Positions 30,905 to 35,637 of a stretch of DNA of 51,382 nt are shown piece by piece. The position numbers were made by a program, and so were the translations under genes. This stretch comes from an uncultured Pelagibacteraceae bacterium (GTDB lineage Bacteria > Pseudomonadota > Alphaproteobacteria > Pelagibacterales > AG-422-B15), in contig CABZHO010000006.1 in NCBI GenBank assembly GCA_902525595.1, positions 1-51,382 on the forward strand. Direction: 5' to 3'. Numbering within the stretch: the first letter of the stretch is position 1; each line of letters starts with the position of its first letter. Under the pieces are notes generated by a model. That model did not search any database, was not told where the DNA came from, and saw only the letters and a list, made by a program, of their open reading frames with translations.

Positions 30905-30981
30905 GCAGCTGTAGCTCAGTTGGTTAGAGCGCCTGGTTGTGGTTCAGGAGGTCGGTAGTTCGAATCTACCCAGCTGTACCA
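30905..30981 (+). tRNA. tRNA-His (GTG), alphaproteobacterial type without G-1
   Basis: A 77-base cloverleaf including encoded CCA, 5 bases after tRNA-Phe. The anticodon loop TTGTGGT gives GTG. The acceptor is GCAGCTG with CAGCTGT, leaving a G1-U72 pair, discriminator A73 (30978) and T at -1. Most bacteria encode G-1 and C73; loss of G-1 with A73 and U72 is the known alphaproteobacterial variant. The last 16 bases also encode, on the other strand, the end of the MFS gene. Confidence 0.97.
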
Positions 30982-32165
30982 ACTAATGACTTTTTTACTG
31001 GAAGAGTTAGTACAATCAAAAAGAGCAGGATCATTACAAATCCGAAAAGTAAATAAAGAAATGCAAACTCACCGCTTATTTCGTAGCTTCTAGAAATTAG
31101 GATTAGGGCTATTGGCCCTACAGAAAATGAAACAATGAATTTTATACCATATACAAGACTTTGATATTTTTCTGGCGAGAATTTAGCCAGTAATAAATTT
31201 TCTGCTGGAAGTATACTTGAATTAAAAGCAACAATCATAAGACTGATAACAATTAACCAATAATTTGATAGACTAACAATGAATAAAAGAAGAGTACCTT
31301 GTCCGATGATACCAATAGCATAGATTACTTTCTCAGAATATTTATCTGTTAAAATGCCACCTATGTAGTTCATTAAACCGCTTACAATATAAATAGCAGC
31401 TACAATATACCCAATCTCAGACGTAGAGAGGTTTAAGCTGTTTGACAGTCTGATATCAATTGCTTTAGGCAAACTTGTTTGAAGAATTTGATATACAAAA
31501 CTCAAACATGTAATACTTACAAGCATTATAATTGCAATTTTTAGCATTTGATTTTTTTCTGGATTATCTCGAAATTGTTCTGATTTAATATTAGTCAATG
31601 AAATTTTTCCTGATTTCAAATGATATGAGAGATATAAGCCTGTTAGAATAGAAATTATTCCAGGGAATATAAACGCAGCTTGCCAATTAATCTGATCAAT
31701 TAAAATACCAGCAAAAAAAGCTCCCAATCCAATTCCTACGCCTCCAAATATATTATTGAAACCAAGTGCACGTCCTGTTTCTTTTGATGTATTAACTATC
31801 CATGATATTCCGGCAGGGTGATATATTGAGCAAAATAAGCCAAGCAAGGATAGACTAATAAAAAGAGATAATTTATTCCCACTCAGACCACAAAGAACCG
31901 AACTAATACCTAGACCTAAAAACATTACTGCAATCATTCCTGAACGGCTCCATCGATCACTAATCCATCCAGCGGGTAAAGATCCTATGCCAACAAGAAG
32001 AGACCCAAGAAACCATAGATTTAAAAGCTCGTCATATGAAAATTTCCACTCATCTTCAATCGCAAGAACAATTACAAAGTAAAACGCAGCAAACATATGC
32101 ATCAATAGATGGCCAAGCGCAGCATAAATAACAGTTAATTTTCTACTGTTTTCAGTGATAATCAT
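30966..32165 (-). CDS. MFS transporter
   Basis: A 399-aa major facilitator with about twelve membrane helices. The loop after helix 2 is AGWISDRWSRSGMIAVM (the MFS GxxxDRxxR motif), and the C-terminal half has the mirror-image GGILTDKYSEKVIYAIG. AGISWIVNTSKETGRALG follows helix 4. The exported or imported compound cannot be told. The stop codon (30966-30968) lies inside tRNA-His, so the last five codons (VGTAG) are tRNA antisense sequence. It is divergent from the hisS leader region. Confidence 0.92.
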   Translation of the reverse strand: MIITENSRKLTVIYAALGHLLMHMFAAFYFVIVLAIEDEWKFSYDELLNLWFLGSLLVGIGSLPAGWISDRWSRSGMIAVMFLGLGISSVLCGLSGNKLSLFISLSLLGLFCSIYHPAGISWIVNTSKETGRALGFNNIFGGVGIGLGAFFAGILIDQINWQAAFIFPGIISILTGLYLSYHLKSGKISLTNIKSEQFRDNPEKNQMLKIAIIMLVSITCLSFVYQILQTSLPKAIDIRLSNSLNLSTSEIGYIVAAIYIVSGLMNYIGGILTDKYSEKVIYAIGIIGQGTLLLFIVSLSNYWLIVISLMIVAFNSSILPAENLLLAKFSPEKYQSLVYGIKFIVSFSVGPIALILISRSYEISGEFAFLYLLFGFVMILLFLIVLTLPVKKSLVGTAG

Positions 32166-32253
32166 TTAATAAAAATAGAGTATTTCGGCTTCACTTAATA
32201 ATAAAAATTATAAAAATTTGACTTTTTTTAATAAATAAGGCATTTCACTGTTC

Positions 32254-32289
32254 ATGATTGTTTTTACACATCATCATATTCATATCTAA
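32254..32289 (+). CDS. Putative histidine leader peptide (hisL-like, 11 aa)
   Basis: A short frame MIVFTHHHIHI with 4 His among 11 codons (all CAT), ending at 32289 in TAA. It lies 91 bases before hisS, the first gene of hisS-hisZ-hisG. Ribosome stalling at His codons when charged tRNA-His is scarce is the classical attenuation signal. A 9-bp hairpin starts at the very next base. No strong Shine-Dalgarno is seen (AAGG is 13 bases upstream). The function is inferred. Confidence 0.62.
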   Translation: MIVFTHHHIHI

Positions 32290-32331
32290 GTTTGCTGAAC
32301 AAAAAGCATCAGCGAACAACAACCCCTTTTT
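32290..32331 (+). promoter_or_regulatory. Leader hairpin followed by C4T5 tract, upstream of hisS
   Basis: GTTTGCTGA (32290-32298) pairs with TCAGCGAAC (32309-32317), one G-U, with a 10-base loop, directly after the leader stop codon. CCCCTTTTT follows at 32323-32331, nine bases past the stem, so this is not a textbook terminator. It may be the anti-terminator or pause hairpin of an attenuator. Confidence 0.45.
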
Positions 32332-32355
32332 ATATTAAATAAACTAACTTTGTAG

Positions 32356-32379
32356 TATCGTGCTAACGATAGGAATCGT
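32356..32379 (+). promoter_or_regulatory. Mutually exclusive small hairpins around the hisS ribosome site
   Basis: ACGAT (32366-32370) can pair with ATCGT before it (32357-32361, 4-base loop GCTA) or with ATCGT after it (32375-32379, loop AGGA). The second option places the Shine-Dalgarno AGGA (32371-32374) in a tight loop next to the ATG at 32380. Both stems are only 5-6 bp. Confidence 0.35.
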
Positions 32380-33771
32380 ATGACTAAGAATAACAATAAA
32401 CCCAAGGCCATTTTACCTAGAGGGTTTAAAGACAGTGAGAAACAACTCCTCTCTCTCAGAAAAATAGTTACTGAGGTAATAGAGGAAGAGTGTCAAAAAT
32501 TTGGATTTGTTGAATTAGAAACCTCATCTATTGAATACACTGATAGTCTGGGCAAGTTTTTGCCTGATATAGATCGACCAAGTGGAGGAGTTTTTTCGTT
32601 ACAAGACGAAGATGGTCAATGGCTATCATTACGATATGACCTTACAGCTCCTTTAGCACGATATGTTGCACAGAATTATCAAAATTTAGTGAAGCCATTC
32701 AAAAGATATCAGTCAGGAATAGTATGGAGAAATGAAAAGCCAGGGCCAGGAAGATTCAGAGAATTTCTGCAATTTGATGCAGATGTCATCGGAATTCAGT
32801 CAAATTTAATCGATGCTGAATTATGCGTCATGGTTGTAAATATTTTGAGAAGGCTTGGTTTAAATGATTCTCAATTTAAAATTAAATATTCGAACAGAAA
32901 AATTTGGACAAGTCTTTTTGAGAAAATAAATGCGTCGAAAGAAGTTGAGTCAAAAATTCTTAGAGCAGTAGATAAAAAAGATCGTCTAGGTGATGAAGGT
33001 GTTAAAGAGTTATTATGTGAGGGTAGAAAAGATAAATCTGGTGATTTTATGGAAGGCGTAGGTCTTGATAATGAACAAGCATCAATGATTTTAAACTTTA
33101 TGAACGATCAACAACAAACGAGTGATGATATTGATGAGTTTAACTCTTATTTGGGTAATTTTGCAGATTATCCAATTTCATTTGATCCATCCATTGTAAG
33201 AGGATTGGATTACTATACAGGCATGATTTTTGAAGCTGAACTATTAATCGATGTAAAAAATACAAAAGGTAAAACTATAGTTTTTGGATCAGTGGCGGGA
33301 GGAGGAAGATATGACAAACTGATATCAAGATTTGGGAAAGAGGACGTTCCCGCTACTGGCATTTCCATTGGTGTTGACAGGCTTATTGTCGCTCTAGAGC
33401 AGTTGGATCTCATTAAAGCCAAATCGAGACCTTTAGTAATTGTAGCAAATTTAGGAGACAATAATTTATCTGAGTATATTCGAATGGCATCTGAAATTAG
33501 AGATGCAGGAATGGCCTGCGAGATTTCTTTTGGCTCAAAAAACTTAGCTAAGCAACTTAAATATTGCGATCGCAAGCAAGCTGATGCAGTTGTAATTGCA
33601 GGTGATGATGAAATTAAAAATAATCAAATATCACTTAAAGATTTAAAAAAGGGAAGTGAGATTTCAAAAAATATTACTGGACGTGACGAATGGAAAGAAA
33701 CTAAAGCAGGTCAAAAAGAAGTAATTAGAGAGGATCTAGTAAGCACTCTAAAGGAAATACTAAAAATTTGA
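32380..33771 (+). CDS. hisS: Histidyl-tRNA synthetase
   Basis: Charges tRNA-His, 463 aa. Class II motifs: motif 2 in FKRYQSGIVWRNEKPGPGRFREFLQFDADVIG, the HisA loop in VRGLDYYTGMIFE, and motif 3 in ATGISIGVDRLI. The C-terminal anticodon-binding domain ends TGRDEWKETKAGQKEVIRED. The sequence is of the divergent alphaproteobacterial type rather than the E. coli type, which fits the tRNA-His without G-1. AGGA lies 5 bases before the ATG. It is first in hisS-hisZ-hisG. Confidence 0.96.
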   Translation: MTKNNNKPKAILPRGFKDSEKQLLSLRKIVTEVIEEECQKFGFVELETSSIEYTDSLGKFLPDIDRPSGGVFSLQDEDGQWLSLRYDLTAPLARYVAQNYQNLVKPFKRYQSGIVWRNEKPGPGRFREFLQFDADVIGIQSNLIDAELCVMVVNILRRLGLNDSQFKIKYSNRKIWTSLFEKINASKEVESKILRAVDKKDRLGDEGVKELLCEGRKDKSGDFMEGVGLDNEQASMILNFMNDQQQTSDDIDEFNSYLGNFADYPISFDPSIVRGLDYYTGMIFEAELLIDVKNTKGKTIVFGSVAGGGRYDKLISRFGKEDVPATGISIGVDRLIVALEQLDLIKAKSRPLVIVANLGDNNLSEYIRMASEIRDAGMACEISFGSKNLAKQLKYCDRKQADAVVIAGDDEIKNNQISLKDLKKGSEISKNITGRDEWKETKAGQKEVIREDLVSTLKEILKI

Positions 33772-33774
33772 GCT

Positions 33775-34902
33775 ATGTCACTACAGGAATTAAATATTAG
33801 ATTAAAAGATTATTTTATTGAGTTAGGATTTCAATATGTAGAGCTTCCTTTAGTTCATGACTCTGACATTTTTTATGAAACATCGGGAGAAGAAATCAGA
33901 AGTCAGATGTATTCTTTTATAGACGGTTCAGGCAAGGAAAAATGTCTGAGACCAGACATGACGATCCCCACGTGTCAAAGTTTTATTAAAAGTGACGATA
34001 AAATAAATGAAGCTAAATTATGCTATAGTGGACCAGTATTTAGGTCAACCAATGGAATAAATGATGCATCAATTGAATTAAACCAATCAGGGGTTGAAAT
34101 TATTTTTACAGAAAAAAAGCTAAAAACTATTTATGAAAAAGATATATACACGCTTAAAACGGCAGTCAAAATTCTAGAAAAATTAAATATTAATGAATAT
34201 CAAATTAAAATAGGCAGTCTAAACCTCTTTAATAGTTTTATAAGTTATTTAGATTTACCGATCAGGTGGAAACAAAGAATAGTCAGGCATTTTTTTAGAA
34301 GAATATATTTTGATAGCTTGTTAAATCGATTAGGGCAAGGTGTCGGTTATGATACATTGAAAAAAGATGAAATTATCAATGAAAGACTAGGTTTGGATGC
34401 TAATTCAAGTGCAAACTTGGTTGATCTAATTAATTCCAATAGCAATTCTGGTTCAGGCTCAAGGACAGTTGAAGAAATCGTCAGCCGATTTCAGGAGAAA
34501 AGTGAAAATATCGTCTCTGAGAGCAATGGAAAACAAATGGTAAATCTGATTAAGAGTTTTTTAGGTTTGAACGCTTCTCTTGATACTTTTCCGAATATTT
34601 TAAGAGAGTTTGTAAGTGATCAAAAGCTTGATTTTTTTAAAAAAGAGATTGATGGCATGGAAGAATTCAAGAACGCTGTTTCATCTGAAATGGACATATC
34701 TAAATTTAATTTCAACAATGACTTTGGACATTCTATTGAATTTTATGATGGCGTCATGTTCGAAATCTATGATCAATCAGGCAATTTAAAGTTAATAACT
34801 GGTGGAAGATACGATAAGTTACTTAATATTTTAGGGTCCAGAAACAAACTGTCAGCTATAGGGTTTGCAACAAATAATAATAACTTAAGTAAAATTTTAT
34901 AA
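33775..34902 (+). CDS. hisZ: ATP phosphoribosyltransferase regulatory subunit HisZ
   Basis: A HisRS paralogue that activates the short form of HisG in the first step of histidine synthesis, 375 aa. It keeps the class II core (CLRPDMTIPTCQSFI, AKLCYSGPVFRST, ELNQSGVEII, LITGGRYDKLL, SAIGFATNNNNL) but lacks the anticodon-binding domain and active-site residues. It starts 3 bases after hisS and ends 2 bases before hisG. Confidence 0.93.
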   Translation: MSLQELNIRLKDYFIELGFQYVELPLVHDSDIFYETSGEEIRSQMYSFIDGSGKEKCLRPDMTIPTCQSFIKSDDKINEAKLCYSGPVFRSTNGINDASIELNQSGVEIIFTEKKLKTIYEKDIYTLKTAVKILEKLNINEYQIKIGSLNLFNSFISYLDLPIRWKQRIVRHFFRRIYFDSLLNRLGQGVGYDTLKKDEIINERLGLDANSSANLVDLINSNSNSGSGSRTVEEIVSRFQEKSENIVSESNGKQMVNLIKSFLGLNASLDTFPNILREFVSDQKLDFFKKEIDGMEEFKNAVSSEMDISKFNFNNDFGHSIEFYDGVMFEIYDQSGNLKLITGGRYDKLLNILGSRNKLSAIGFATNNNNLSKIL

Positions 34903-34904
34903 TT

Positions 34905-35606
34905 ATGAAATTCGAAAATAAATTAAGAATAGGATTACCTAGCAAAGGCAGGTTAAGAAAAGACATGGAGAAACTTTTTCTAGATAAAAATATTACTTTT
35001 GAAAATCTTGTAAATGATAGAGATTATATTGGTACAATAAAGGGACTAAGAGATACAGTTCTATATTTTTTAAGCGCTAAGGAAATTACCAATAGACTTG
35101 ATGAGGGATCAATCCATGCAGGCTTAACTGGTGATGACCTGATACAAGAAAAAATTTTTAATTTTAATTCAAAAATAATAAAGGATCTGGAGTTAGCTTT
35201 TGGAAAAGCGGATCTGGTTGTTGCTGTACCTGATATCTGGATTGATGTAATGACGATGGCTGATTTGGAAGAAGTGAGCAATAATCACAGAGACAAATAT
35301 TCAAAAAGGTTACGCGTAGCAACTAAATACAAGAATTTAACAAATAATTTCTTTTCTAAATGTGGAGTTGTTGATTATAGAACTGTTGAAAGCGACGGCT
35401 CTACCGAAAGTGCGCCTTTCAATGGTTTTTCAGAAATCATCACTGATATAACATCAACAGGTGACACACTAAGGGCTAATAATTTAAGAGTTCTTGATGA
35501 TGGCATAATCCTGAAATCATCAGCAAATATTTTTTCTTCAAAAGCTGCGGAGTGGAATAAAGAAATAGAAAATAATTATAAAAACTTTATCAATAAGTTT
35601 GAATAA
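34905..35606 (+). CDS. hisG: ATP phosphoribosyltransferase catalytic subunit (short form)
   Basis: Condenses ATP and PRPP, the first committed step to histidine, 233 aa. It has LRIGLPSKGRLRKDM at the start, HAGLTGDDLIQE, FGKADLVVAVPD, LRVATKYKNLT and the PRPP-binding segment TDITSTGDTLRANNLRVL. There is no C-terminal regulatory domain, so it depends on HisZ. A strong terminator follows within 5 bases. Confidence 0.95.
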   Translation: MKFENKLRIGLPSKGRLRKDMEKLFLDKNITFENLVNDRDYIGTIKGLRDTVLYFLSAKEITNRLDEGSIHAGLTGDDLIQEKIFNFNSKIIKDLELAFGKADLVVAVPDIWIDVMTMADLEEVSNNHRDKYSKRLRVATKYKNLTNNFFSKCGVVDYRTVESDGSTESAPFNGFSEIITDITSTGDTLRANNLRVLDDGIILKSSANIFSSKAAEWNKEIENNYKNFINKFE

Positions 35607-35637
35607 AAAAAACCCGGCTAGGCCGGGTTTTTTTTAG
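35604..35637. terminator. Bidirectional terminator between hisG and groEL
   Basis: AACCCGGC (35611-35618) and GCCGGGTT (35622-35629) form a GC-rich 8-bp stem with a 3-base loop. An A run (from 35604) and a T run (to 35635) flank it. It ends the his unit on the plus strand and groESL on the minus strand. Confidence 0.93.

Follow-up and report, generated by a model that had tools for sequence, protein, structure and literature searches.

A probable histidine-responsive leader peptide in front of hisS-hisZ-hisG in SAR11 bacteria

Analysis of the window, the whole 51,382-nt stretch of DNA, suggests that the hisS-hisZ-hisG operon is probably controlled by a histidine-responsive, ribosome-mediated leader-peptide regulator, for which an output of the Rho or RNase type is the likeliest. 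The parts of this reading differ in strength. Judged from sequence comparison, the leader is very probably a histidine sensor, and there are good grounds for thinking that hisS expression is raised on His shortage, a direction that we infer; limited access of Rho or RNase as the output is a tentative proposal drawn from our own analysis. The initial annotation had put forward a histidine attenuator at this place. Conservation strongly supports leader-peptide control of the three genes, but attenuation of the classical kind is not supported, with no intrinsic terminator, conserved antiterminator or state-dependent masking of the hisS start found. In general, the region has the two marks of a leader-peptide regulator, namely a conserved upstream frame rich in codons of the regulated amino acid and a conserved structure that responds to ribosome position in the folding model, whereas the intrinsic terminator and the conserved, exclusive antiterminator of the hisL/trpL type are absent.

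The window genome amounts to 1.0 Mb in 40 contigs, and the public records closest to it are SAR11 single-cell genomes and MAGs (Pelagibacteraceae/Pelagibacterales). Gaps within hisS-hisZ-hisG measure 2-3 bases, and the features of the leader, the operon and its surroundings are listed in Table 1.

Table 1. Positions of the leader elements, the operon and related features in the window
Feature	Positions	Strand	Remarks
tRNA-His(GTG)	30905..30981	+	not part of the leader-controlled unit in the window; part of it in the sister family
Predicted promoter, TTGACT - 17 nt - CATTTC	32218..32246	+	transcription start predicted at or adjoining the leader ATG
Leader peptide frame, MIVFTHHHIHI*	32254..32289	+	probably leaderless mRNA; without Shine-Dalgarno
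Hairpin I, 9-bp stem, A-rich 10-nt loop	32290..32317	+	folding, covariation, position after the stop codon
5-nt spacer of fixed length and invariant CCCC	32318..32326	+	candidate Rho-binding or RNA polymerase pause element, function inferred
T5 run	32327..32331	+	unconserved; CTATATA or CTATTT instead in other genera
Hairpin II, TATCGT-gcta-ACGATA	32356..32371	+	immediately 5' of the hisS Shine-Dalgarno and start
hisS, histidine--tRNA ligase, 463 aa	32380..33771	+	TIGR00442, 373 bits
hisZ, ATP phosphoribosyltransferase regulatory subunit	33775..34902	+	best matches are HisZ models, under their cut-offs
hisG, ATP phosphoribosyltransferase	34905..35606	+	TIGR00070 above cut-off
Intrinsic terminator at operon end, ACCCGGCTAGGCCGGGTTTTTTTT	35605..35635	+	same-genome comparison for hairpin I

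The leader frame (ATGATTGTTTTTACACATCATCATATTCATATCTAA) consists of 11 codons and a stop codon, and its four His codons are all found among the last six codons. Among 50,000 dinucleotide shuffles of the 214-base intergenic region, an ATG frame of at most 15 codons with at least 4 His appeared in 8 (frequency 1.6e-4), and nowhere else in the whole 51-kb window does either strand carry such a frame. The elements described at the outset, that is, the His-rich frame, a hairpin from the base after its stop codon and C4T5 thereafter, are all present as claimed.

By comparing 44 hisS loci from the SAR11 family of the window (f1), which comprise 31 distinct leader sequences and whose HisS proteins are 59-98% identical to that of the window, the conserved parts of the leader can be recognized. 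A His-rich frame of 11 codons, constant in length, lies at the same place in all 44 loci; this count includes L059, whose frame MFNFKHHTAHI, with three His, was overlooked by the automatic filter. Of the distinct sequences, 31 of 31 have His at codon 10, 30 of 31 have it at codon 6 and 30 of 31 at codon 7, and 27 of 31 have it at codon 8; codons 7 and 8 swap between CAT and CAC, and the residues at codons 2-5 and 9 vary freely. Hairpin I, whose arms in the window are GTTTGCTGA/TCAGCGAAC, has its first base (32290) directly after the stop codon and starts 0 nt after the stop in all distinct f1 sequences but one, in which an extra pair can be drawn. The distance from the last His codon to the hairpin is 6 nt in nearly every f1 sequence. 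In 15 representatives, 100% of the cells of hairpin I are paired, and 4 of its 9 pairs carry changes on both sides. When both hairpins are taken together, 91% of the cells are paired, and only 30-56% are paired after the partner is shifted by 1-3 columns. In addition, RNAalifold recovers hairpin I unprompted. A covariance model of the hairpin and CCCC matched strongly once in every f1 genome whose locus is complete, in each case at hisS, and gave no strong match in genomes of the sister family of the same order (f2, Pelagibacteraceae); its next-best matches were far weaker, and the two that were inspected lie within or beside unrelated coding sequence. Alignment of related genomes had been suggested as a check on the proposal, and across two SAR11 families the His run and the hairpin are indeed kept while the rest drifts.

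These data bear on the simplest alternative, that the frame is a functionless, chance run of His codons. It is just 11 codons long, and Rfam holds no annotation for it, no match at or above the gathering score (His_leader or any other family) being found for the leader RNA; however, the shuffle frequency, the order-wide conservation of the frame with synonymous changes, and the covariation of the adjoining hairpin all speak against chance, which conservation by itself already contradicts. The likelihood of this alternative is close to nil: the His-rich frame is not a product of chance, and the initial judgement that such a peptide would be improbable is borne out. RNA folding, also suggested as a check, gave a divided answer. 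Hairpin I is present in both the MFE and the centroid structure of the window leader, but the folding of the whole 161-base leader is not unusual (z = -1.5). What the family conserves is hairpin I.

Upstream of the leader ATG, a -35-like TTGAC is located at 35 or 36 bases in all 44 f1 loci, and TTG is found at -34 to -36 in most loci of f2. In the window, the -10 element, an assignment read from the sequence, ends 7 bases before the ATG. Because TTGAC stands at a fixed distance from the ATG in every f1 locus, the leader mRNA is probably leaderless, and a transcript starting at the leader ATG is probably the simplest reading of the promoter spacing. A scan of the stretch between the leader and hisS found no sigma-70-like promoter.

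Downstream of hairpin I, the window reads AACAA, then CCCC (32323-32326), then TTTTT. The distance from the stem to CCCC is exactly 5 nt in 44 of 44 f1 loci, despite differing loops and stems, and the distance from the stop codon to CCCC ranges from 30 to 36. Thus, C4 is kept throughout the family, but T5, the other half of the C4T5 motif, is unconserved and missing in genus g2. Since the stem-to-CCCC spacing is invariant, the strongest alternative output is a hairpin-stabilised pause of RNA polymerase at the CCCC/U boundary, ~10 nt downstream, which would last until a ribosome at the stop codon opens the hairpin and would couple leader translation to entry into hisS. The geometry resembles that of the pauses in the his and trp leaders of E. 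coli. A pause alone, however, would lower or delay hisS expression under His shortage unless joined to another step, and f2 has no such element; we consider this output improbable, if worth keeping in mind.

The same segment bears on a class-I attenuator, in which hairpin I and C4T5 would serve as an intrinsic terminator, and stalling of the ribosome at His codons would allow an antiterminator. The T5 after the hairpin in the window clade and the His-rich peptide are what such a mechanism calls for, and part of f2 has 5-6 T in the 8 bases after its hairpin. However, the T5 begins 10 nt past the stem of hairpin I, 0-1 T occur within the 8 bases after the stem in every f1 locus, and g2 has CTATATA in its place. 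A terminator scan between the leader and hisS gave no match, whereas the operon end has a textbook terminator. A recurrent-helix search in 11 representatives found no conserved antiterminator or alternative partner for the arms of hairpin I; the helices that recur are hairpin I, hairpin II, a helix in the hisS coding sequence and a weak 5'-end helix of the start codon with the first His codons. Moreover, a stall at the first His codons would free hairpin I, which for a terminator is the wrong sign. Hairpin I as an intrinsic terminator was rejected on its tail composition, the 10-nt gap and the unconserved T5, and a class-I attenuator is very unlikely.

The helix in the hisS coding sequence involves about codons 9-19 (32405-32435), where AAACCC...GGGTTT pairs in 10 of the 11 representatives, and some of the differences between them are compensatory (AAATCCT/AGGATTT, AAGCC/GGCTT); it may be chance arising from conserved KP...GF residues. 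In some lineages, but not in all, CCCC can also pair with a GGG(U) within hisS codons.

Folding with the ribosome masked, performed on 12 representatives with an assumed footprint of 13 nt downstream of the A-site codon start, links hairpin I to leader translation. In these models, the arm of hairpin I is paired at 96-100% with the ribosome at the first His codon, at about one half with the ribosome at the last His codon, and at 0% with the ribosome at the stop codon. The modelled pairing tracks ribosome position, and hairpin I would therefore report where the ribosome is. On the other hand, the modelled accessibility of the hisS start barely changes across the ribosome states in the 12 sequences (e.g. 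0.60, 0.57 and 0.53 for the window, and a constant 0.60 for L063). This argues against translation attenuation, in which the position of the leader ribosome would control access to the hisS start as in mycobacterial leaderless polycysteine frames. A leaderless, amino-acid-rich frame does stand ahead of the operon, and a hairpin near the hisS start is present in most sequences; nevertheless, several lineages are without a clear Shine-Dalgarno to hide, and we regard this alternative as unlikely. Sequestration of the hisS start as such was rejected, accessibility being alike in the stalled and the terminating state. At the hairpin II site itself, most of 11 representatives have a hairpin, with both-side changes and with shifts in register; in most f1 sequences such a hairpin, often AGTATC...GATACT, stands ahead of the hisS start, with homologous places in L030, L057, L058 and L060-L063.

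Among the possible outputs, limited access of Rho or RNase is favoured, tentatively, because Rho is encoded in all seven of the SAR11 genomes checked, because the G-poor stretch after hairpin I holds the invariant CCCC, and because of precedents in speF and mgtL. CCCC is unpaired in either ribosome state; it lies outside hairpin I and is therefore not hidden by base pairing of the hairpin. In Salmonella speF, ribosome pausing at Arg codons allows the hairpin after the stop codon of orf34 to form, a ribosome positioned at the stop codon prevents this, and the hairpin-bearing RNA is the stable, expressed form (PMC6386406). The likeness to the SAR11 leader, as modelled here, lies in a hairpin right after the stop codon, in its block by a ribosome at that codon, in its formation tied to pausing at cognate codons, and in raised expression; the differences are that orf34 responds to arginine, has 34 codons in a 500-nt leader, acts through RBS sequestration and RNase G, and is not leaderless (PMC6386406). 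In Salmonella mgtL, as summarised in PMC5021804, ribosomes that stall at Pro codons promote a stem-loop by which Rho is kept off. As in the mechanism proposed for SAR11, a stall at the codons of one amino acid and a stem-loop act there without an intrinsic terminator, but the signal is proline/Mg2+ and rut is masked by the stem itself, whereas the SAR11 C4 lies 5 nt outside the stem.

Based on the above, the following mechanism of leader action may be proposed. Transcription would start at the leader ATG, and ribosomes would therefore load on the leaderless 11-codon frame. When His is plentiful, the ribosome would reach the stop codon, its footprint would cover the 5' arm, and hairpin I would remain open. 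When charged tRNA-His is scarce, the ribosome would wait at the His codons and hairpin I would form. A sensible response to a shortage of charged tRNA-His is to make more HisRS and HisG, and the stall lets the hairpin form; the formed hairpin should therefore favour hisS expression, likeliest through less access of Rho (or RNase) to the G-poor CCCC stretch. A more far-reaching version, which we offer as a speculation with perhaps a modest chance of being right, is a minimal regulator without terminator or antiterminator, in which the leaderless 11-codon frame, the stop-codon hairpin and C4 at 5 nt would target the elongating RNA polymerase itself, through a pause or Rho. In Pelagibacteraceae, where the sensor stands before the tRNA-His gene, charged tRNA-His might then govern the supply of tRNA-His, of HisRS and of the enzyme that opens the biosynthetic pathway.

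The sister family f2 was represented by 63 loci, of which L220 (cut short) and L246 (no recognised tRNA-His) were left out. A leader with two to six His codons, e.g. MIKIINNLTLSHRHHLHAGCTLAI, is present in 60 of the 61 assessable loci, situated between tRNA-Phe and tRNA-His-hisS-hisZ-hisG; the exception, L241, has a single His codon, and some other Pelagibacter leaders are reduced to two. The last His codon adjoins the hairpin in nearly all distinct f2 sequences. CCCC is absent, however, and the hairpin lies inside the end of the frame; the output may therefore differ in f2. The tails after the f2 hairpin hold anywhere between 1 and 6 T, and certain f2 lineages may therefore have a weak terminator. 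Beyond the order, no convincing His-rich frame was found upstream of hisS in 90 alphaproteobacterial regions, sampled at one or two per family, and within f2 no leader was found before hisBHAFI in about 270 nt upstream of hisB in three genomes. In L085, L086, L231, L239, L240 and L245, the leader frame contains a second inverted repeat, e.g. AGTACTTTAAGAAAAGCTCTTAAAGGAACT, which precedes the His codons and shows differences that appear compensatory.

Several known systems share single traits with the SAR11 leader. The hisL leader of E. coli and Salmonella carries seven His codons and alternating hairpins that end in an intrinsic terminator, and it controls biosynthesis only. Both leaders present the ribosome with a run of His codons in a leader peptide and control, in SAR11 probably, hisG-type genes, but the SAR11 leader has one hairpin and no terminator, and hisS comes first in its operon. 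In Bacillus, a His leader peptide ahead of hisS* and hisZ was proposed by Naville and Gautheret (2010, PMC2965389), which is alike in being a His-codon-rich short frame before hisS-family genes; that leader was found through a predicted Rho-independent terminator and precedes the paralogous hisS*/hisZ, whereas in SAR11 the main hisS is preceded by an adjoining hairpin and no terminator. No sequence similarity was seen between Firmicutes and Proteobacteria leaders (PMC2965389). Leader-peptide control of an aminoacyl-tRNA synthetase gene is likewise known from the trpS and leuS attenuators of Streptomyces, which differ in being classical terminator/antiterminator systems for other amino acids; cys leaders without terminators have also been described (both PMC1262725). 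In Sinorhizobium meliloti, another alphaproteobacterium, the ATG of the trpL leader peptide is the RNA 5' end, but trpL has Trp codons, a real terminator/antiterminator pair and a trpE(G) operon (PMC7298713). Mycobacterial leaderless polycysteine ORFs have been reported as translation attenuation (Canestrari 2020, as cited in PMC9031893). Like the probably leaderless SAR11 frame, they are short frames with a run of one amino acid's codons and no terminator, but they serve cysteine genes, and an RBS switch is not predicted in SAR11.

His leaders before hisS-family genes (Bacillus, PMC2965389) and synthetase attenuators (Streptomyces, PMC1262725) are already proposed or known. What is new is the combination: an order-wide SAR11 His leader, probably leaderless, with a single adjoining hairpin and no terminator, before hisS-hisZ-hisG (and tRNA-His in Pelagibacteraceae). 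No description of an amino-acid leader peptide in SAR11 was found in the non-subscription literature searched, and a 2009 survey of Ca. P. ubique structured RNAs gave no text match starting with 'his'. Few regulators are known in SAR11 bacteria, although these rank with the most abundant cells of the ocean. If confirmed, the leader would be an order-wide histidine sensor that covers, within one operon, HisRS together with the entry step of histidine synthesis, and in Pelagibacteraceae also the gene for tRNA-His, with a streamlined genome sensing an amino acid by about 120 bases and without a regulatory protein. It would also offer a compact case in which to ask how expression can be governed by the position of the ribosome alone, with no terminator involved.

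The surroundings of the leader differ between the two families. In each of the seven f1 loci that were scanned, tRNA-His precedes hisS by ~1.4 kb. The f2 order, as in L249, is hisD, maf, tRNA-Phe, leader, tRNA-His, hisS, hisZ and hisG, followed by groEL on the opposite strand, and the window neighbourhood is the same except that a minus-strand MFS gene separates tRNA-His from the leader. One of these arrangements must therefore have arisen by rearrangement. In the window, tRNA-His shares 16 bases with the end of this opposite-strand MFS transporter gene (30966-32165). A single full-length tRNA-His match per genome was found in the six genomes tested. In Pelagibacter genus g6, a comparison of L081-L089 and L226-L248 with L064-L080 shows two HisS types, one about 50% and the other about 42% identical to that of the window. 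The two types differ clearly in their tRNA-His bodies, some of which are unrecognised by ARAGORN; a replacement of the HisRS/tRNA-His pair is possible in g6, and the leaders of the 42% group are often His-poor. Finally, in one g9 genome (G268:C9:32174-33431), hisS is in two pieces with internal stops, which may reflect an assembly error or decay.
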